64,000 bases of DNA from Streptomyces sp. TG1A-8. GTDB lineage: Bacteria; Actinomycetota; Actinomycetes; Streptomycetales; Streptomycetaceae. Under the pieces are notes generated by a model, which saw only the letters and a program-made list of their open reading frames with translations, was not told the origin of the DNA and searched no databases. The stretch's first letter is position 1; each line of letters starts with the position of its first letter. The position numbers and the translations under genes were made by a program. This document shows, in pieces, positions 2,893 to 10,193 of the stretch. The stretch spans positions 4,898,001 to 4,962,000 of the forward strand of contig NZ_JASTLB010000001.1 in NCBI RefSeq assembly GCF_030499535.1. Direction: 5' to 3'.

Positions 2893-2965
2893 TCCTCCGT
2901 AGCTCAATTGGCAGAGCAGCCGGCTGTTAACCGGCAGGTTACTGGTTCGAGTCCAGTCGGGGGAG
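2893..2965 (+). tRNA. tRNA-Asn (anticodon GTT), copy 2
   Basis: An identical 73-nt copy of the preceding tRNA-Asn lies 79 nt downstream (start to start), leaving only a 6-nt gap. The two are almost certainly co-transcribed and processed from one precursor that ends at the hairpin just downstream. Confidence 0.97.
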
Positions 2966-2976
2966 CACGCTGAACG

Positions 2977-3141: not shown

Positions 3142-3218
3142 GGGGCGGTAGCTCAGCCGGTTAGAGCAGCGGACTCATAATCCGTCGGCCGTGGGTTCGA
3201 GTCCCACCCGCCCCACCA
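3142..3218 (+). tRNA. tRNA with CAU anticodon (elongator Met or Ile2), CCA encoded
   Basis: The cloverleaf has acceptor GGGGCGG/CCGCCCC, D arm GCTCAGCCGGTTAGAGC, anticodon stem-loop GCGGA-CTCATAA-TCCGT, T arm GTGGG-TTCGAGT-CCCAC, discriminator A and an encoded CCA (3216-3218). A CAU anticodon is shared by elongator Met, initiator Met and Ile2 (lysidine-modified). The perfect first acceptor base pair argues against initiator Met. Met versus Ile2 cannot be settled by eye; a covariance-model search would decide. Its 3' half is duplicated at 6426-6476 and appears to have served as an integration site. Confidence 0.9.
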
Positions 3219-3221
3219 CGC
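3171..3221 (+). repeat. Direct repeat, left copy (tRNA 3' half): candidate attachment site
   Basis: The last 51 nt of the CAU tRNA, from the anticodon stem through CCA and three further bases, recur at 6426-6476 with two mismatches (A3179 to G and G3201 to A). Phage and ICE integrases of actinobacteria use tRNA 3' ends as attB and restore the gene upon integration. The intact gene here with a half-copy downstream is the expected product. Confidence 0.8.
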
Positions 3222-3501
3222 GCTACGCGGGGAGAAGCCTTCCGACCAGCAACTTTAGTGGCTGGCGAGTGACCCGAGGGATGCTGGTGGCGCGCCTTCA
3301 AGGCATGTCCATGATCGGCAGGACGGAATCGGGACGTCGATTCCGGTCAAGCCGGATACAGGGTTCATGGGGTGTTTTGCGCGAGGTGGGACAGCCCTGC
3401 TGTCCGCCCTGGGCCGGGAAGTGGTTCAGATGGAAACGCCTCCGCGTCCTGCACCCCATGGAGTGGCCTGTCTGTGATCGGTGGCCGCTCCAGTGTTGGC
3501 G

Positions 3502-4026
3502 ATGTGCCGTGGATGCGTACATCGTGGACACCGGAGGTGCCCGGCGTCCGTCACACGGGTTGATCTCGACGACGAGGCGCCGGCCGAGGCCATGCGGCTC
3601 ATGGGTGCCACGACGAAGGAGGAGACCGTCCACACGGCTCTTCGGGACTACGTGGCGCGGATCAGGCGGCTTGAGGCCGCGGAGAAGCTGGCCGCGCGAG
3701 GTGCGCGTGGCGAGTTCGAGGAGGTCGCAGCGGCGCGTGACGCCGAGAGGCGTGCGCGACGCGAGGCCTTCGAGTGGTCACGTACCTGGTGGACACCTCG
3801 GCTCTGTGGCACCTGTTCCGCACCCCGGGTGCGCTGCGCCCCTGGGGGGTGCACATCGCCGCCGGGGTGTTCCACCTCTGCGAGCCGACGCGGACCGAAT
3901 CCCTCCATTCGGCAACCAGCTCCTCCCACCGGGACGAGCCGGCGGAAGAACTGGACGCGCTCTGCTTGCACTCTCCGGTCCCGGAGAACGCCTGGCGTTG
4001 GGTCGACACCGCCCGGTACAAGCTGA
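3502..4026 (+). CDS. VapB-type antitoxin, probably decayed (start and stop both doubtful)
   Basis: The recognisable antitoxin body is at 3550-3775: VTRVDLDDEAPAEAMRLMGA followed by a T-T-K-E-E-T-V ribbon/helix pattern, then a long charged helix ending REAFEW. In actinobacterial VapB proteins this type usually begins directly before TRxDLDDE and stops at the VapC start. Here the codon before TRVDL is GTC rather than GTG, and the codon after FEW is TCA where a TGA would end the protein. The frame therefore needs an upstream ATG (3502) and runs on for another 84 codons inside vapC. Each defect is one substitution from the expected form, which I infer to be decay. A GGAGG at 3533-3537 is compatible with the original start. 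The family neutralises the VapC RNase and autoregulates. Confidence 0.55.
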   Translation: MCRGCVHRGHRRCPASVTRVDLDDEAPAEAMRLMGATTKEETVHTALRDYVARIRRLEAAEKLAARGARGEFEEVAAARDAERRARREAFEWSRTWWTPRLCGTCSAPRVRCAPGGCTSPPGCSTSASRRGPNPSIRQPAPPTGTSRRKNWTRSACTLRSRRTPGVGSTPPGTS

Positions 4027-4181
4027 CCCGGCAGGGTCGGCATCGGGCGGCTGGAGCGATCGGCCTGTTGGCGTGCGCGACAGCCGTGCACCATGGGCAC
4101 ACTGTCCTCCACGTGGACAGTGACTTCGCGACAGTGGCCGGAGTCCTCAAGGAAGTTCAGCAGCGAGACGCGCGAGTCTGA
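3774..4181 (+). CDS. VapC-like PIN-domain toxin, catalytic Asp missing
   Basis: This 135-residue PIN-domain protein starts with GTG overlapping the antitoxin coding region. PIN ribonucleases use four acidic residues to bind Mg2+/Mn2+. The first (D7 in YLVDTSALW), the second (E37 in HLCEPTRTE) and the last (D115/D117 in VLHVDSDF) are visible. The third should fall in the 'xVDLLIAATA' motif, but here it reads GAIGLLACATA, giving Gly97 in place of Asp. Loss of this residue is expected to abolish or cripple RNase activity. Together with the defective antitoxin frame this suggests a dead module, although a neofunctionalised RNA-binding role cannot be excluded. Spacing and order (antitoxin, then toxin) are normal for vapBC. 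Confidence 0.75.
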   Translation: MVTYLVDTSALWHLFRTPGALRPWGVHIAAGVFHLCEPTRTESLHSATSSSHRDEPAEELDALCLHSPVPENAWRWVDTARYKLTRQGRHRAAGAIGLLACATAVHHGHTVLHVDSDFATVAGVLKEVQQRDARV

Positions 4182-4326
4182 TCACCTGCGTGCCCCGGGC
4201 CGACTGCTGGGGGAACACCCGCGCGGGGCCCTCTCCGAGCGATCCCCGCGTGCGCGGGGCCGACTCGTAAGCCTTGACCGTGTTCGTCTGCGAGTCGGAG
4301 CCATCGCCTCCTGCGCGGGGACAGCT
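4177..4326 (-). CRISPR. Degenerate type I-E-like CRISPR repeats (three copies), no cas genes
   Basis: Read on the minus strand, a 29-nt unit at 4265-4237 (AGTCGGCCCCGCGCACGCGG and then GGATCGCTC) has the GC-rich hairpin form of actinobacterial type I-E repeats. A similar but degenerate unit lies 61 nt away at 4326-4298 and another 60 nt away at 4205-4177 (AGTCGGCCCGGGGCACGCAG...). The 60-61 nt period equals a 29-nt repeat plus a 31-32 nt spacer, the type I-E norm. The outer copies carry several mismatches, so this is a remnant or terminal degenerate fragment of an array. No cas gene is in the window. The 3'-most copy overlaps the vapC stop. Confidence 0.5.
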
Positions 4327-4428
4327 CCGCGACGATGGGCAGTCCGTTCCGGTTGTGCAGGACTCGTACCGGGGGATGGCCGGGACCTCCGGCGCTCCCC
4401 GGCCCGCCTTCCGCGGTTGAATACCGGT

Positions 4429-6108
4429 GTGGCACTGAAAGTGGTGGGGTTCGGCGAGGACGATGTGAGGGCGCTGGCCGGGACCCGGTCCTTCGAGCGA
4501 GGGCTGGGGTACCTGGACGCGGTGAGCGGGCTGGAGGTGGGGGAGGGCTCGGTCACCGCCGTGGTGCACGGTACGGACGTCTACGAGGTGGAGCTCACGC
4601 TCGGCGACGAGGGGGTCTCGGCGTGGTGCGACTGCCCGTACGGGCAGGAGGGCAACTTCTGCAAGCACTGTGTGGCGGTCGGGCTCACCGTGCTGCGGCG
4701 GGTGAAGACGATCCCCCAGCAGCGAGCCGCGGCACGAGCGCGGGCTTCCGGCTTGGAGGCGTGGCTTTCGGCGCTGTCGCGTGACGAGCTCCTGGCGCTG
4801 GTGCGGGAGCAGATCGCCGAGGACCGGGAATTGCGAAGGCGTCTGGAGCTGCGGGCAGCCGCTGCTCGTTGCGACCTCGGTACGGTCCGGGACCGGATCG
4901 TCGCCCTGACCGATCCGCGGCCGTTCGCCCGGTACGGATGCATCGAGTACGCGGATGCCTCCGGGTATGCGCGACAAGTCGCCGAGGCGGCGAGCGCGCT
5001 GCGCGCCCTGACCGCCGATGGGCAGGCGGCGCAGGCGGTCGGACTGGCCGAGGAGGCGATCCGGGTGCTGGGGGAGGCATACGGGGAGATCGACGACTCC
5101 GACGGTGTGGTCGGGGAGGCCGCCGCCGCGGTGGCCGAGGCCCATCTGGAGGCTTGCGGGGCCGCACGCCCCGATCCGGCTCGGCTGGCCGACTGGCTGG
5201 TCGGCACGGTGCTCGACGGCAGCAACGACGTGACAGACCTGGATCCGCTGGACTACGCCGACGTGCTGGGGCCGAGCGGGCTGGCCCGCATACGGCAGCT
5301 GGCGACCGAGGCGCTCGGGCGCAGGCCGTCCGGCTGGGCGGAGCGGTACCTGATGGAGCGTCTGATCAAGGCCGGGGGTGACGTCGACGCGTTGGTCGCC
5401 CTGCACGCGCAGGACCTCGGCCCGACCGGTGCGACCCATCTGCTCATCGCCGAGGAGCTGGAGTCGGCGGGGCGTGCGGCCGAGGCGCTTGCCTGGGCGG
5501 AGCGCGGACTGCGGGAGTGCGCCGCCCGGACGTACATCGACGACCGTCTGGTCGACTACGTGTGCGCGCGGTACGCGCAGACGGGGCGGACGGCCGACGC
5601 GGTCGCGGTGCGCCGGGACCGGTTCCGTGTCGAGCGGTCCCTGGCCGCCTACCGCCAGTTGCGCGCCGTCGCCGACGCGGCGGACTGCTGGGAGGCCGAG
5701 CGCGCTGCGGCGCTGGCCACCTTGGAGGAGGGCGCCCGTCGTGAGCGCGGCGGCCGGTACGGCGGGCCCGTGCTGATCGACGCGTTGCTCGACGACGGCG
5801 ACCTGGACGCCGCCTGGCGGGAGGCCGCCGACCACGCCGACGACCGGCAGTGGGCGCAGCTCGCCGATCTGTCGCGCGAGACGCGCCCGGCCGAGGCGCT
5901 CGGCGTGTACCTGCGGCTGATCGAGCGGTCGAAGGAGCCGACGGGTGACCGTGCCTACGCGCACCTGGCACGGCTGCTCCAGGCTGCCCGTGACTGCCAT
6001 CGCGCGCTGGGGACCGAGGACGCGTTCACCCTCTTTCTGACCGACCTGCGGACGGAACTGAAACGCAGGCGGAAGCTGATGGCCATCCTTGACCGGCACG
6101 GGCTGTGA
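4429..6108 (+). CDS. SWIM zinc-finger protein with long helical-repeat C-terminus
   Basis: This is a 559-residue protein. Residues about 1-90 contain a SWIM zinc finger, with the C-x-C-xn-C-x-H pattern in AWCDCPYGQEGNFCKHCVAV, preceded by the usual YEVELTL strand. SWIM domains bind DNA or mediate protein contacts in bacterial SWF/SNF helicase partners and other chromatin-like proteins. The remainder is Ala/Glu/Arg-rich and helical, with TPR-like spacing (EALAWAERGLRECAAR; ADAVAVRRDRFRVERSLAAY; AEALGVYLRLIERSKE). This matches the common stand-alone 'SWIM zinc finger family protein' of Streptomyces. The GTG at 4429 (VALKVVGFGEDDVRAL) is the best start, although no strong ribosome site is visible; a TTG at 4417 is the alternative. 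It is the largest gene inside the tRNA-flanked remnant. The function is unknown. Confidence 0.7.
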   Translation: MALKVVGFGEDDVRALAGTRSFERGLGYLDAVSGLEVGEGSVTAVVHGTDVYEVELTLGDEGVSAWCDCPYGQEGNFCKHCVAVGLTVLRRVKTIPQQRAAARARASGLEAWLSALSRDELLALVREQIAEDRELRRRLELRAAAARCDLGTVRDRIVALTDPRPFARYGCIEYADASGYARQVAEAASALRALTADGQAAQAVGLAEEAIRVLGEAYGEIDDSDGVVGEAAAAVAEAHLEACGAARPDPARLADWLVGTVLDGSNDVTDLDPLDYADVLGPSGLARIRQLATEALGRRPSGWAERYLMERLIKAGGDVDALVALHAQDLGPTGATHLLIAEELESAGRAAEALAWAERGLRECAARTYIDDRLVDYVCARYAQTGRTADAVAVRRDRFRVERSLAAYRQLRAVADAADCWEAERAAALATLEEGARRERGGRYGGPVLIDALLDDGDLDAAWREAADHADDRQWAQLADLSRETRPAEALGVYLRLIERSKEPTGDRAYAHLARLLQAARDCHRALGTEDAFTLFLTDLRTELKRRRKLMAILDRHGL

Positions 6109-6425
6109 AAGGGCTCCGGCAGAGGCCTTGTGGCGAGGGGGAAGGACAGGGACAGGGGCCGGCTCTCCCCGTGGGGGAGGTGATTCCGCTGCCGGAGGCG
6201 GGATGGTGCAAGCCCGGCGTCCCCCATATTCCCCTCACGGCAGGGCTCTGCCGACCGCCAGGGGACATGCAGGGGAGGGGAGGACCCGGGAAGGCCCCGG
6301 GAAGGCCCCGGAAGGACCCGGAAGGACCAGGAGGGCCGGCGCGGAGCCAGAACCGCGAAGCTCCTCTGACGTGCGGTTACGGGAAGGCCGGGGCAAGAGC
6401 GGGGCCGGAGCGGAAGGTCCGAGGA

Positions 6426-6476
6426 GGACTCATGATCCGTCGGCCGTGGGTTCGAATCCCACCCGCCCCACCACGC
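6426..6476 (+). repeat. Direct repeat, right copy of tRNA 3' half: candidate distal att site
   Basis: A 51-nt near-copy (49/51) of the 3' half of the CAU tRNA extends through the encoded CCA. The 5' half of the tRNA is absent, so it cannot be a functional tRNA. It marks the far end of the integrated remnant. Confidence 0.85.
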
Positions 6477-6862
6477 ACCGCGCACCACGCGCGCGGAGGG
6501 CCGCCGACCAGCGCTCCCGTGGGAAGCCGGAACCGGCGGGCGCGGCGGCCGACTTCGAGTGGACCGGGACCGCCGGGGCCGTCCGCGCCCCCGCGGCGAC
6601 CGGCTCACGGTGACGGTCCGGCTCCGGGACGGCACCGCGTACGACCGCGGGCCGGACGACCGCGGGCCGGCCCGGCTCACCGGACGGCCGGACCGCGCCC
6701 CGCGACGGTACCCGCCCGCCGGCCGGCCGGCCCGCCGAGCCGCGGGCAAGGCGGGTCCGGGTCAAACGAGTTGAGCCCGTGGGGGCTTGGACCTGCCCTG
6801 TTCTGGGCACGGTCCTCCTACCGGCGTCCACCGCCGGGCCGTTTCGGCAGGAGGAGGGCGTC
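6477..6862. other. Gene-poor spacer after the att repeat
   Basis: About 390 bp are GC-rich without a convincing coding frame. They include short self-repeats of CCGGCC/GGCCGG and GCGGGCCGG type. The only notable element is a strong GGAGGAGGG ribosome site at its right end, feeding a 32-codon frame. The 6109-6425 stretch left of the repeat is likewise without a recognisable gene; it is dominated by GGAAGGCCC/GGAAGGACC tandem-like runs at about 6289-6325. Confidence 0.5.
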
Positions 6863-6961
6863 ATGGACCGTCGGATCCGGGTGCGTGTCAGTCGGCGGCC
6901 CGCCCCGCGCGAGCAGGAGATCGACCGCAGGACGCCCTCGGGGCGCATACTCCCCTACTGA
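6863..6961 (+). CDS. Short basic peptide with a strong ribosome site (32 aa)
   Basis: A 32-codon frame (MDRRIRVRVSRRPAPREQEI... ending GRILPY) follows a near-perfect Shine-Dalgarno sequence (AGGAGGAGGG, about 4-8 nt before the ATG). The peptide is strongly basic with no membrane segment. I do not recognise a family. The quality of the ribosome site is what sets it apart from random short frames. It could be a leader or a small functional peptide, or simply coincidence; conservation of the peptide across Streptomyces would decide. Confidence 0.4.
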   Translation: MDRRIRVRVSRRPAPREQEIDRRTPSGRILPY

Positions 6962-7024
6962 TACCGACCACGCCGGCCGGCGGCCCGCGGCCGGCGCGCC
7001 CCGCCGGCGGACGCCCCGGCCGGG

Positions 7025-8062
7025 TCAGCCGGCCAGCGGGCTCAGCGTCAGCGGCTGGATCCGGCCCTCCAGCATGGCGCCGAGCCCGTGGACGGCGCAC
7101 ACGTCGGGCCGCTCCGCGATGCGCACCGGGACGCCGGTGGCCTGGTGGAGCATCCGGTCCAGGCCGGGCAGCAGGGCGGAGCCGCCGACCATCATGATCC
7201 CGCGGTCGGCGAGGTCGGCCACCAGGTCCGGCGGGCAGTCGCGCAGCACCTTGCCGATGCCGTCCAGGACGGCCGTCAGCGGGGTCTGGATGGCGTTGCG
7301 CACGGCGGCGGTGTCGACCCGCACGGTGCGGATCCGCCCGGTGGCCACGTCCCGCCCGTGGATCTCGGTGGACGTCGGCCCTCGCGGGGTGAGCCCGTTG
7401 TCGGACAGCGCCAACTGCAGCGGCCGGACCGACTGGCTGGGCAGCACCAGCTCGTGCGCGTGCCGCAGGTGCTGCACGATCGCGCGGTCCACGGCCTCGC
7501 CGCCCACCGGGACCCGCTCGGCCGTCACGATGGACCCGAGGGAGAGCACGGCCACCTGGGTCGCCGCCGCCCCGCACACCATGATCATGCTGGCCTCGGG
7601 CCGCTCCACGGGCAGTCCGCAGCCGACGGCCGCCGCGATCAGCGTGTCCACCAGCTCCACCCGGCGCGCCCCGAGCCCGACCAGCGTCTCGGTCGTCGCC
7701 CGCCGGGCCAGCGGGTCGGCGTCGTGCGGGGTGCAGGCCGCCGCGCGCAGCCGGGGCCTGCGACGCAGGGCGCGGCGCACCTTGTCGCCGAGCAGGTGCC
7801 GCAGCATGCGCTGCGCCATCTCGATGTCGACCACCGTGCCACCGGACACGGGCCGCGCGACCCTGATGTAGCCCGGTGTCCGCCCGGTCATCCTCTCCGC
7901 GAACTCGCCCACCGCGATCAGTGCGCCGGTCCGGGTGTTCACGGCGACGACGGAGGGCTGGTCGACGACGAGTCCGGCACCCTTGACGTACACCCGGGTG
8001 CGGGCCGCTCCCAGGTCGACGGCGAAGTGACAGCGGCGCAAATGCTCCAGACTGACGGTCAC
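7025..8062 (-). CDS. mbl: MreB-like actin homologue (Mbl type)
   Basis: A 345-residue actin-fold ATPase. Phosphate-1 is visible as FAVDLGAARTRVYVKG (residues 13-28), phosphate-2 as MIMVCGAAATQVAVLSLGSI, the connect regions near VVDIEMAQRMLRHLL and IAVGEFAERMTGRTPG, and the adenosine motif as GIMMVGGSALLPGLDRML. In Streptomyces MreB and Mbl act in spore-wall assembly rather than tip growth. Mbl is encoded away from mreBCD, as here, where there is no mreC/mreD neighbour. Phosphate-2 normally has D-x-G-G and here reads C-G-A-A, so the nucleotide site is divergent, consistent with a specialised paralogue. The ATG/GTG choice is supported by the short N-terminus before the first beta strand. Confidence 0.82.
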   Translation of the reverse strand: MTVSLEHLRRCHFAVDLGAARTRVYVKGAGLVVDQPSVVAVNTRTGALIAVGEFAERMTGRTPGYIRVARPVSGGTVVDIEMAQRMLRHLLGDKVRRALRRRPRLRAAACTPHDADPLARRATTETLVGLGARRVELVDTLIAAAVGCGLPVERPEASMIMVCGAAATQVAVLSLGSIVTAERVPVGGEAVDRAIVQHLRHAHELVLPSQSVRPLQLALSDNGLTPRGPTSTEIHGRDVATGRIRTVRVDTAAVRNAIQTPLTAVLDGIGKVLRDCPPDLVADLADRGIMMVGGSALLPGLDRMLHQATGVPVRIAERPDVCAVHGLGAMLEGRIQPLTLSPLAG

Positions 8063-8296
8063 GGCAGGTCCTCCCGAGTACGCAGGCCGAGCGGTGCCGC
8101 CGGCGCGGCGGGCCTCACCGCTCCATCCTGCGCGGCGCGCCGGCGCGGGCGCCTTCTGGAGGGGGCCGGGCGGGGCGCGGCCGAACGGGGGTCCGGGGGC
8201 GGGAGTCCCGACCGGACGGGCCCGGGCGGTGACGGGCGGGGCCAGGCGGCGACGGGCGGGGCACGCTCGAAGGACGCCCGGGCGTCCCGGGGGCCC

Positions 8297-8719
8297 TCAG
8301 GACCGGGGGGCCGGCTCCGGCGCGGCCGCCGGCACCGGGGGCGGACCCGCCGCAGCCGGTGTCCCGGGCTGCGCAGGCCCCTCGCGCTCCTCCCGCGCCG
8401 CGGTCCGCGACGTCCACCCCAGCCGCACCACCAGCTGGCCCTCCGCCGCCCCCTTGGCGATGACCGCGCCGGCCTCCGCCGTGAGCCGCACCCCGAACTC
8501 CAGCTCCACGGAGTCGGGCCGCAGGGCGCCGTCGCGGAAGACCCGCAGCGCGGACTGGGCCGCCGCGCGCACGCCGTCCAGGGCGCCCTCGAAGGCCTGG
8601 GCGGCCTGGGCGGCCGGGCCGTCGCCGCGCGCGACGAGCCGGGTGCCGCTCCCGGGGTCGTTCGTCTCCACGACGACGACGGCACCGTCCTCGGTCCGGA
8701 ACTCCACCAGCCTGCCCAT
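8297..8719 (-). CDS. CU044_2847-family (trypsin-co-occurring domain 1) small protein
   Basis: A 140-residue protein begins MGRLVEFRTEDGAVVVVE. It has the family pattern: an N-terminal beta hairpin carrying an E-F-x-x-E-D-G motif, a central amphipathic helix (AFEGALDGVRAAAQSALRVF), then D-S-V-E-L-E-F-G-V-R-L-T-A-E-A-G-A-V-I-A-K and a final strand (LVVRLGW). A Pro/Ala-rich tail follows. Comparative genomics has linked this 'trypco1' domain to bacterial conflict systems together with trypsin-like or caspase-like proteases, but no such effector is adjacent here. The start at 8719 is chosen because upstream codons do not fit the domain. It lies between mbl and the carboxyltransferase gene on the same strand, with gaps too long to indicate an operon. 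Confidence 0.72.
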   Translation of the reverse strand: MGRLVEFRTEDGAVVVVETNDPGSGTRLVARGDGPAAQAAQAFEGALDGVRAAAQSALRVFRDGALRPDSVELEFGVRLTAEAGAVIAKGAAEGQLVVRLGWTSRTAAREEREGPAQPGTPAAAGPPPVPAAAPEPAPRS

Positions 8720-8840
8720 GACGCCGCTCGCCCCCGTGTCCCCGGTCGGTCCCTCCACCCATTGTCGTGGAAGGCGGTCCGCGCCGTCCGCCGTTCCGGT
8801 GCGCACGGCCGCACCGCCGCCAGCGGGAAGCGGCCCCGGT

Positions 8841-10193
8841 TCAGGCCCGGTTGCCGTCAGCGGGACCGACGACGCCCCGGACCACGCCCAGTTCCACCAG
8901 GTCCTGCGGGCGGATGCGGAGCTGGTCCGCGGTCGCCTCCACCTCCTCGGGCGGGCGCTTGAGGATCGCCGCGGCCAGTTCCGGGGCGATCACCGAGAAG
9001 TAACTGTCCGGTGTGGCCCAGGTGTTGCCGGGCGCGGCCAGGGCGAGCGCCCCGCCCGAGCCGCCCTCGCCGATGACCAGCGTGGTGACCGGGACCCGGG
9101 CGGCGGCCACCGCGCCGAACACCTCGGCGATCGCGGCTCCGGCCCCCTGCCGCTCCGCGTCGGCGTCATTGGCGGCACCCGGCGTGTCCACCAGGGTCAG
9201 CACGGGGATGCCGAGCCGGTCCGCGAGCCGGATCAGCCGGGCCGCGGTCCGGTACCCGGCGGGCCGGGTCGCCGTGCCGGTCTGCGCCGCGAACGCCACG
9301 GTACGGCCGTCGCGCTCGCCGAACCCGCACAGCATCCCGTCGGGATCGCTCCCGCCGCACCGGTCGCCGCTGAGGGCGGCCCGACGGGTGAAGCAGGCGT
9401 CCAGGTAGGCGCGGGCGCGGGGGCGCTCGGGCGCGCGGGCCCGGGTCACGGCCTGCCACCCGGTGGCCGGGAGCCCGCCGGCCCCCAGGGCGGGCGGTAG
9501 TGCCGCCTCGGCGGCCGGAGTGGTCAGCAGCCGCAGCCACAGCCCCAGCGTGTCCCGGAGCTCCGCCTCGGGGACCACCGCGTCCGCCGAACCCGCCGCC
9601 ACCTGCGCCTCCGCCGTGTACGCGGCCGGGTCGGCACCGGCCGGACGGACGCGGGAACCGGCGAAGCCGACCTGGGCGCCCGGGAGGGCCAGGACCACGT
9701 CGGCTCCGGCGCCCAGGGTGGCCCAGCCGCCACCGGTCGTCGGGTCCCGCAGGACCGCGATCTGCGGCAGCCCCGCCTCCCGGGTGAGCACGGACTGCCG
9801 TGCCACGCGCTGGAGCTGGGTCAGCGCGAGCATGCCCTCCTGCATCCGGCTGCCGCCGGTGGCGACCAGCGGTACGACCGGCAGCCGGTGTTCGCGGGCG
9901 TGGGTGTAGGCCGCCACCAGCCGGTCGCCGGTGCGCTCGCCCAGGGAGCCGCCGAGGAAGCCGAACTCGAACGCGATCAGCACGGCCCGGGTGCCCCCCA
10001 CGCTCGCGGTGCCGCAGACGACCGACTCCCGCTCCTCGGTGCGCTCGGCGGCACGGGCGCGGGCGGCGTCGTAACCCTGCCAGCCGAGCGGGCCGTCCAC
10101 CGCCGTCCGCCGTGCCGGGCCGGGCAGTTCGCTGAAGTCCGCCCCGTCGGTGACCAGTGCCAGGATCTCCCGGGCCGAGAGCCGCTCAGGCAT
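8841..10193 (-). CDS. Fused acyl-CoA carboxyltransferase (AccD+AccA halves)
   Basis: A 450-residue protein of two crotonase-fold halves. The N-terminal beta-like half (to about residue 215) contains ATGGSRMQEGMLALTQ and the DPTTGGGWATLG motif. The C-terminal alpha-like half contains LVDTPGAANDADAERQGAGA, VIGEGGSGGALALA and the terminal AAILKRPPEEVEATADQLRI. These are the signatures of acetyl-CoA carboxylase carboxyltransferases. The zinc ribbon of bacterial AccD is absent (only one Cys in the first 70 residues), and no biotin carboxylase or BCCP is nearby. The start codon overlaps the matB stop (8-bp overlap), so the two are translationally coupled. Coupling to MatB suggests a malonyl- or methylmalonyl-CoA substrate, perhaps decarboxylation or transcarboxylation; that is inference. 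Confidence 0.83.
   Translation of the reverse strand: MPERLSAREILALVTDGADFSELPGPARRTAVDGPLGWQGYDAARARAAERTEERESVVCGTASVGGTRAVLIAFEFGFLGGSLGERTGDRLVAAYTHAREHRLPVVPLVATGGSRMQEGMLALTQLQRVARQSVLTREAGLPQIAVLRDPTTGGGWATLGAGADVVLALPGAQVGFAGSRVRPAGADPAAYTAEAQVAAGSADAVVPEAELRDTLGLWLRLLTTPAAEAALPPALGAGGLPATGWQAVTRARAPERPRARAYLDACFTRRAALSGDRCGGSDPDGMLCGFGERDGRTVAFAAQTGTATRPAGYRTAARLIRLADRLGIPVLTLVDTPGAANDADAERQGAGAAIAEVFGAVAAARVPVTTLVIGEGGSGGALALAAPGNTWATPDSYFSVIAPELAAAILKRPPEEVEATADQLRIRPQDLVELGVVRGVVGPADGNRA

Follow-up and report, generated by a model that had tools for sequence, protein, structure and literature searches.

An integrase-less interval between a tRNA gene and its displaced half in Streptomyces sp. 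TG1A-8: a likely decayed cassette

The tRNA gene, its displaced half and the genes between them

Contig C1 of Streptomyces sp. TG1A-8 (G000, 7.66 Mb; codes of this form denote the genomes of the comparison set) carries, in a stretch of 64,000 nucleotides (C1:4898001-4962000, hereafter the window), a tRNA gene with the anticodon CAU and, further downstream, a second copy of its 3′ half. The 3.26 kb separating the two contain a vapBC toxin–antitoxin pair, scraps of a CRISPR array and a gene for a SWIM zinc-finger protein. We analysed this interval, its two ends and the corresponding tRNA locus in other genomes. The features concerned, in window coordinates, are as follows.

2814-2887 and 2893-2966, plus strand: two tandem tRNA-Asn(GTT) genes (ARAGORN), the conserved chromosomal flank upstream of the target tRNA
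3142-3218, plus strand: target tRNA gene, anticodon CAU (labelled Met by ARAGORN)
3171-3221, plus strand: attL core, the tRNA 3′ half from the anticodon stem plus a few bases
3219-3345, no strand: left arm (P′-type), homologous to the left arms of other vapBC cassettes
3346-3489, no strand: linker, conserved with other vapBC cassettes (72-74% in G278 and G252)
3544-3777, plus strand: vapB antitoxin pseudogene (PF09957, 1.6e-13)
3774-4181, plus strand: vapC, PIN-domain toxin gene with an open frame (PF01850, 8.7e-7)
4190-4330, minus strand: relic of a type I-E CRISPR array, with repeats at 4236-4264 (27/29) and 4297-4325 (22/29) and a further trace 60 nt leftward
4429-6108, plus strand: SWIM zinc-finger protein gene (PF04434), start codon predicted
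6309-6422, no strand: right arm (P-type), 114 bp directly before the half-tRNA
6426-6476, plus strand: attR core, the displaced tRNA 3′ half with two mismatches (BLAST and core pattern survey)
6530-6678, plus strand: remnant of a serine/threonine kinase gene, a frameshifted C-terminus in the right chromosomal flank
7025-8062, minus strand: mreB-family gene (PF06723, 4e-108), the conserved right chromosomal neighbour

The initial annotation had described the 3′ half of the CAU tRNA as duplicated downstream with two mismatches, and the comparison confirmed it: the two cores are identical at 49 out of 51 bases (96%, E=4e-17; positions 30-80 of a query spanning window 3142-3270). The mismatches in attR fall in the anticodon loop, at the base 3′ of CAT, and in the T-loop. 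The ungapped repeat extends to 58 nt at 91% identity, beyond which 37 nt with a seven-base offset are still similar at 73%, up to positions 3250/6512. Elsewhere in the 7.66-Mb genome, the query of tRNA and flank finds just four weaker matches (82-84%). ARAGORN mistakes the half copy for a further ‘tRNA-Met’ gene (6402-6473). The bracket is that of a tRNA-integrated element, with the intact tRNA on one side and, on the other, a 3′ fragment that is displaced but oriented alike; the core repeat is an attL/attR pair. The anticodon-loop change of the window half (A to G, giving CATG for CATA) also occurs in diverged half copies of G125, G092, G266, G252 and G299, and may reflect either shared descent or repeated decay.

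ARAGORN labels the target tRNA Met because its anticodon is CAU. The mycobacteriophage Yoshi contains a 48-bp stretch that is 91.7% identical to the tRNA half and begins at the same base; it occupies a gap from which the tyrosine integrase gene is about 0.6 kb away, beyond gene 55. A table in PMC10865867 lists the attB-13 site of Yoshi as tRNA-Ile2-CAT, with a 43/45 core and the tRNA rebuilt. This homology, together with the listing, points to tRNA-Ile2 as the probable identity of the target.

The passenger-type genes and CRISPR-like repeats that had been noted between the copies were recovered as a PIN-domain VapC, a decayed vapB, a CRISPR relic and the SWIM gene. No tyrosine integrase was detected between the window cores, either by tblastn with two integrases, with a hidden Markov model built from nine integrases or with PF00589. 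The IntA-like pieces of this genome lie elsewhere, the best of them at C1:4145451 (53%, in a 263-aa frame). Among the interval reading frames tried against Pfam and PHROGs, no families other than vapB, vapC and SWIM were found; no PHROGs family was matched at E≤0.01 in seven interval frames, leaving the att ends as the only prophage-like part. Within the frames tried, the interval is, thus, an attL/attR bracket devoid of recombination or transfer genes, as in a cis-mobilizable element (CIME).

The vapB of the window has lost both the start codon (ATG or GTG) and the stop codon of the 12 relatives compared. The vapC frame is open, and its ratio of nonsynonymous to synonymous substitution rates (dN/dS) is 0.09-0.31 against relatives, compared with 0.00-0.11 among six of those relatives. 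Acidic residues have a known role in PIN domains, and one that is conserved in 10 relatives is replaced in the window VapC, which is probably inactive though open; the vapBC pair as a whole is probably dead. VapC had no PADLOC match. Residues 10-556 of the SWIM protein align to positions 12-561 of the 566 in PADLOC model PDLC05053 of the family PDC-S62 (E=1.7e-31), and this nearly end-to-end match to a candidate defence family makes an anti-phage role of the SWIM gene plausible. The gene is open in the window, with a dN/dS of 0.25-0.41 against five relatives; residues 1-558 are free of stops in four relatives, while in G125 the gene is frameshifted (two frames). It was found at ≥80% identity over about 1.7 kb in at least 5 of 294 other genomes. 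This count, like the others from these 294 genomes, is of matches listed, sorted by E-value.

The two relic repeats are 61 nt apart and match the repeat of G299 at 27/29 and 22/29 bases, which is the pattern of a type I-E array in degenerate form. Window positions 4170-4330 are identical at 115 out of 152 bases to the array beside vapBC in G299, and this alignment traces the CRISPR-like repeats of the window back to a G299-like array. There, the tRNA-to-half interval (10.7 kb) contains vapBC and, by Pfam, Cas3, a frameshifted Cse1, Cse2, Cas7, Cas5 and Cas6; cas1 and cas2 were not noticed in this cassette, although no model search for them was made. The orphan patch of CRISPR-like repeats in the window is, thus, explained as a scrap of a carried type I-E locus. 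At G299:C17:985001-1005000, CRISPR repeats lie on both sides of the type I-E genes, and a second vapBC-like pair lies beyond the half-tRNA.

A general tie between CRISPR-Cas and this tRNA was considered and rejected, as Cas genes between cores were found in G299 only. We fetched 38 further Cas7 loci, of which 18 were lower-scoring (mostly G299-like) and 20 were a selection of higher-scoring ones; neither the tRNA nor a half copy was present in any of the fetched stretches, and the G025 locus includes 48 bp that match the right arm at 79%. Another CRISPR-Cas relic may be present in G252, where a cas5-like scrap of 16 residues lies near vapBC (E=7e-5). The genome of TG1A-8 itself has a separate type I-E Cas7 locus on contig C4 (G000:C4:497945-499078).

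Element ends and use of the tRNA site across Streptomyces

The two ends of the interval are homologous to the ends of integrase-bearing elements. On the left, the first 35 bp of the arm are 91% identical to an element of G026 that carries an integrase. No integrase remnant was recognised in the linker (3346-3489); a C-terminal scrap of an integrase is retained between the tRNA and vapBC in G032, as read from an alignment with the end of the G026 integrase. The left module (vapBC, partly with the arm) was found in at least 18 of the 294 other genomes at ≥80% identity over at least 478 bp. In 14 out of 15 left-module loci fetched, vapBC is preceded by a core at a distance of no more than 1.8 kb (the full tRNA in eight, a half core in six; none in G288), and vapBC, therefore, travels as the first cargo behind the core.

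On the right, the arm matches at least seven of the 294 genomes at 77-85% identity (G123, G254, G239, G006, G109, G034 and, in part, G125), and in all of these except G254, which has none, a core follows 3-4 bases after it. In G006, the right arm, 81% identical to that of the window, belongs to a 66.6-kb prophage with a tyrosine integrase beside the tRNA and with terminase, portal, tape measure, endolysin and methyltransferase genes (PHROGs). Four short direct repeats of the GGAAGG type, spaced by 10-11 bases, occur beside and within the right arm at window 6277-6331, with similar-looking ones in G034 and G031; they could be integrase arm sites.

Two relatives share different parts of the window interval. 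In G109, vapBC lies behind the tRNA and the right arm before a half copy 10.9 kb away, without PF00589. In G125, the tRNA, the SWIM gene, the right arm and the half are contained in 3.0 kb, with no vapBC between; its left arm and that of the G006 prophage share 90% identity across some 120 bp. The first kilobase of the G125 interval, from the tRNA to the SWIM gene, seems on inspection to encode another toxin–antitoxin pair. The main gene of another cassette, of 6.85 kb (G123, contig C132, locus 5091-9266), encodes a 1391-residue WD40-repeat protein with a weak match to Avs1b (E=8e-4); it is possibly a defence protein, with what reads as an NTPase part.

The block formed by the two tRNA-Asn genes and the CAU tRNA was matched in all 36 same-genus relatives, the match beginning inside the block in G022 and G008 and being in two pieces in G005. 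To gauge how often the site is used, we surveyed the core as a 46-base pattern, with up to three mismatches, in 71 genomes including that of TG1A-8; a diverged half in G031 (five mismatches) is not counted. The pattern was present in all 71 genomes, with an extra copy in 17 of them (TG1A-8 included), and gave no hits in the 71 genomes when read backwards. Where a contig held several copies, the cores lay on one strand in 24 out of 26 cases (13/13 in the survey and 11/13 in chosen genomes), and in the loci fetched, every copy is oriented as the tRNA or the cassette. Half copies were found at 4 of the 36 same-genus loci, in stretches of 20 kb at most. By their BLAST ends, those of G013, G034 and G031 begin at tRNA position 30 and that of G012 one base earlier.

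The initial annotation had suggested looking for integrases next to this tRNA in other strains. A long tyrosine integrase frame lies no more than 0.3 kb 3′ of the tRNA in 8 of the 36 relatives (G026, G006, G030, G014, G012, G010, G025 and G023), and an integrase fragment lies near it in a ninth (G028). With the common start base, the shared strand and the homologous arms that abut the copies, these integrases support the earlier reading of the interval as the product of site-specific integration at the tRNA. They also bear out, together with the extra cores in 17 out of 71 genomes, its description as an integration hot spot. The half-tRNA and the neighbouring genes are not core sequence of the genus, as the half occurs at 4/36 loci and the SWIM gene in at least 5/294 genomes. 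Nor do the copies behave as a generally dispersed tRNA fragment, given their strand and abutting arms.

In relatives, an inverted-repeat motif, approximately GCAGAAACGATCTGACCTGCGGAAACG, lies within the 70 bp that follow the tRNA (corresponding to window 3217-3286). It was present at 17 or more of 27 bases in 31 out of 37 tRNA loci and 22 out of 28 half copies, versus 2 out of 1,850 shuffles, and may be an integrase arm site or a host tRNA terminator. In 14 loci from other genera, inspected by eye and unscored, a few show a partial likeness to it (e.g. G058 and G047).

Downstream of the half copy, the sequence at 6530-6678 corresponds to the C-terminus of a kinase gene that is a single open frame in G033 and is matched over nearly its whole length in G020. 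By this comparison, the right flank of the interval is a kinase-gene remnant and not an intact pre-insertion flank. It is followed by a conserved small reading frame and by mreB.

Intervals without an integrase and the origin of the window copy

The initial annotation had attributed the absence of mobility genes to their loss after integration. We examined 33 core-to-core intervals from 12 genomes, which were chosen for their repeated cores and not at random. PF00589 was missing from 30 of them, with lengths of 3-36 kb. In two of the three positive intervals, of 93 kb (G286) and 97 kb (G011), the integrase lies just inside one core; the third, of 18 kb in G109, has a short fragment. Since 30 out of 33 intervals lack PF00589, the window interval is probably a non-autonomous cassette and not a large element that shed its genes; loss after integration is, thus, less likely than a cassette that had no such genes.

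Several of these intervals are arranged in rows. The longest among 21 chosen genomes are those of G286, with eight cores (seven intervals), and G132, with seven cores. The row of G286 begins at the complete tRNA, which follows two tRNA-Asn genes and is its outermost core; next to it lies the unit with the integrase, and then come six units without PF00589. Four tandem units of this genome (5157, 5324, 5016 and 5250 bp; G286:C1:2957524-2978271), all lacking PF00589, have interiors among which blastn finds no match. In three of them, the left ends (278-341 bp) and the right ends (353-396 bp) are alike at 82-90% identity; the fourth shares about 75 bp on the left (95-96%) and 118-125 bp on the right (71-76%). 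The five cores of these units are identical at 46/46 bases. That the ends have diverged by 10-18% beside unchanged cores suggests that the cores are still constrained, and the two changes in its attR suggest that the window copy has lost this constraint. The row of G011 lies on contig C2 (G011:C2:425982-551790) and not at a complete tRNA. This row and those at G278:C1:9899291-9947483 and G252:C1:9433957-9508964 are remote from the tRNA locus or lie on a different contig, which gives the impression that entire arrays have moved or that secondary sites were used.

We consider it likely that the 3.26-kb interval is a decayed, composite cassette of the satellite or cis-mobilizable kind, without an integrase of its own, which a tyrosine integrase of phage type inserted at tRNA-Ile2(CAU). 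The att pair, the homology of the arms to element ends, the absence of the integrase, the decay of vapB, the origin of the CRISPR scrap and a prophage relative with a matching right arm are direct observations. Recombination would have taken place in the anticodon-loop region of the tRNA gene, with an integrase supplied in trans, probably of the IntA type and from a same-site prophage such as that of G006. Two neighbouring cassettes would have contributed, one the left half with its arm, vapBC and CRISPR relic (compare G299), the other the right half with the SWIM/PDC-S62 gene, its arm and the half-tRNA (compare G125); on the simplest account, deletion of the core between them fused the two. 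From this pairing of parts, the interval probably consists of two cassette ends joined by a deletion. The window copy would now be immobile: mismatches between recombination partners are typically strongly harmful, according to PMC10865867, and the anticodon-loop mismatch in attR would speak against mobilisation.

The main competing explanation is that a single prophage or integrative and conjugative element (ICE) inserted at this site and was then reduced in situ to 3.26 kb, with vapBC and the SWIM gene as its passengers. The relationship of both arms to integrase-bearing elements (G006 and G026) fits such a history, as does the integrase scrap of G032 at the matching place. We nonetheless regard it as unlikely: intervals of 3-36 kb free of PF00589 abound among the chosen genomes, the PHROGs scan of the window interval recovered no phage gene family and the parts of the supposed single element occur separately, with SWIM and right arm but no vapBC in G125, and vapBC without SWIM in G299 and G109. 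The same separation is seen more widely. In the other genomes with right arm and core, vapBC was unseen in the fetched stretches of G006, G123, G239 and G034, and G125 has a 150-bp partial vapBC match more than 10 kb beyond its half; G252 and others, like G299, have vapBC without SWIM.

A remnant of an actinomycete integrative and conjugative element (AICE), instead of a phage-type element or cassette, is far less probable. PMC9513070 and PMC3218068 describe AICEs as often lying in tRNA 3′ ends of Streptomyces and as accreting, and Faln5456 is listed there at a tRNA-Met. Yet Pfam detected neither a replication nor a transfer family in the interval, and where a complete element combined this right arm with an integrase, it was a prophage. 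We rejected a simple AICE remnant, as Pfam detected no integrase, replication or transfer gene in the frames tried, although no dedicated TraB search was made. Least credible of all is an origin of the half-tRNA by chance duplication, homologous recombination or an insertion sequence (IS), unrelated to integration. The weaker tRNA-like matches elsewhere in the genome (82-84%), a DDE transposase gene in the related cassette of G109 and the opposite-strand copies of G278 and G115 could be cited for it. Against it stand the same start base in relatives, the single strand on 24/26 contigs, the abutting homologous arms, the integrases beside the tRNA in 8/36 relatives and the same half near an integrase in Yoshi. 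IS or chance duplication, and with it a dispersed tRNA fragment, was rejected as already contradicted by strand, start base and arms.

Several observations weigh against an integrated, composite cassette. Had the interval been inserted cleanly, relatives without it should have the tRNA followed directly by the sequence from 6477 onwards, as had been predicted; such a clean empty site was found in 0 out of 36 relatives. The nearest approach is G003, where the homologue of window 6844 begins 261 bp after the tRNA. The region between the tRNA and mreB differs in each relative compared; the classic empty-site comparison is, therefore, not possible, and the failure of the prediction says little against integration. 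In G278 and G115, cores on one contig lie on opposite strands, with copies megabases apart. The two flanks of the window itself score 14 of 27 for the flank motif, below the threshold of 17. The genomes behind the 33 intervals were picked for repeated cores, and serine-type and other integrases were not searched in them. Just 1 of the 39 Cas7 loci examined (G299) sits on such a cassette; the CRISPR link is, therefore, no rule and this cargo is rare. No relative fetched combines vapBC, the SWIM gene and the right arm, so that the fusion rests on different partners. Finally, movement of an integrase-less cassette has not been observed.

More tentatively, and with somewhat less than even confidence, we propose that the window interval is a worn-out member of a genus-wide Streptomyces family of integrase-less cargo cassettes, in which the tRNA-Ile2 half-gene ends are conserved and the insides freely exchanged, and which are lined up in rows and moved in trans by the integrases of same-site prophages. 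The G286 units, with their dissimilar interiors, similar ends and identical cores, are a supporting sign. Such a family would be a phage-integrase counterpart of the integron cassette array, its cargo including toxin–antitoxin pairs, candidate defence genes and, once, the interference module of a type I-E CRISPR-Cas system. In the literature searched, we found no description of rows of integrase-less cassettes at tRNA-Ile2 of Streptomyces, which is not proof of absence.

Relation to known systems

The site allows many Streptomyces cassettes to be compared with respect to possible helper prophages and to their toxin–antitoxin and candidate defence cargo, and the tandem rows may record the order of arrival. 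It also raises the question of whether integrase-less Streptomyces defence cassettes are moved by the integrases of phages against which they may defend.

Among the closest known relatives of the window interval is the G006 prophage, with the same tRNA, the same core and an 81% identical right arm; it measures 66.6 kb and contains phage genes, whereas the window interval measures 3.26 kb and has none. Yoshi likewise has the same tRNA 3′ half near an integrase in its attP/attB-13 pair, but is an intact phage of Mycobacterium, while the window has neither an integrase nor a phage gene; its sequence showed no blastn similarity to the window right arm outside the core. None of the 74 phage records matched was a Streptomyces phage with this attP, and the best phage integrase relative was that of TurkishDelight (39%). 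In a plasmid collection, 27 records had matches of 77-94% to the tRNA half. The relic in the window is comparable to the type I-E CRISPR-Cas systems of Streptomyces in its repeat (27/29 to G299), from which it differs in consisting of array scraps without a cas gene.

Tycheposons and other tRNA-bound cargo islands are, like the window cassette, small, bound to a tRNA and dominated by cargo, a likeness of layout and not of compared sequence. Integration at tRNAs, accretion and cargo-only islands are already known, and the window interval is ordinary in kind. Less expected are the many integrase-less intervals arranged in rows at this site, with ends common to a prophage. Accretion by AICEs at a tRNA-Arg of Streptomyces is described in PMC9513070, and the core rows show the same pattern. 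CIMEs, for example TR1 of Streptomyces scabiei or the remnants beside AICEs, are att-bracketed DNA without recombination genes, placed side by side, in the accounts given in PMC9513070 and PMC8369830. The intervals at tRNA-Ile2 resemble them in this respect; here, by contrast, the relative that carries an integrase is a prophage, the copy in the window has decayed and any mobilisation is putative.

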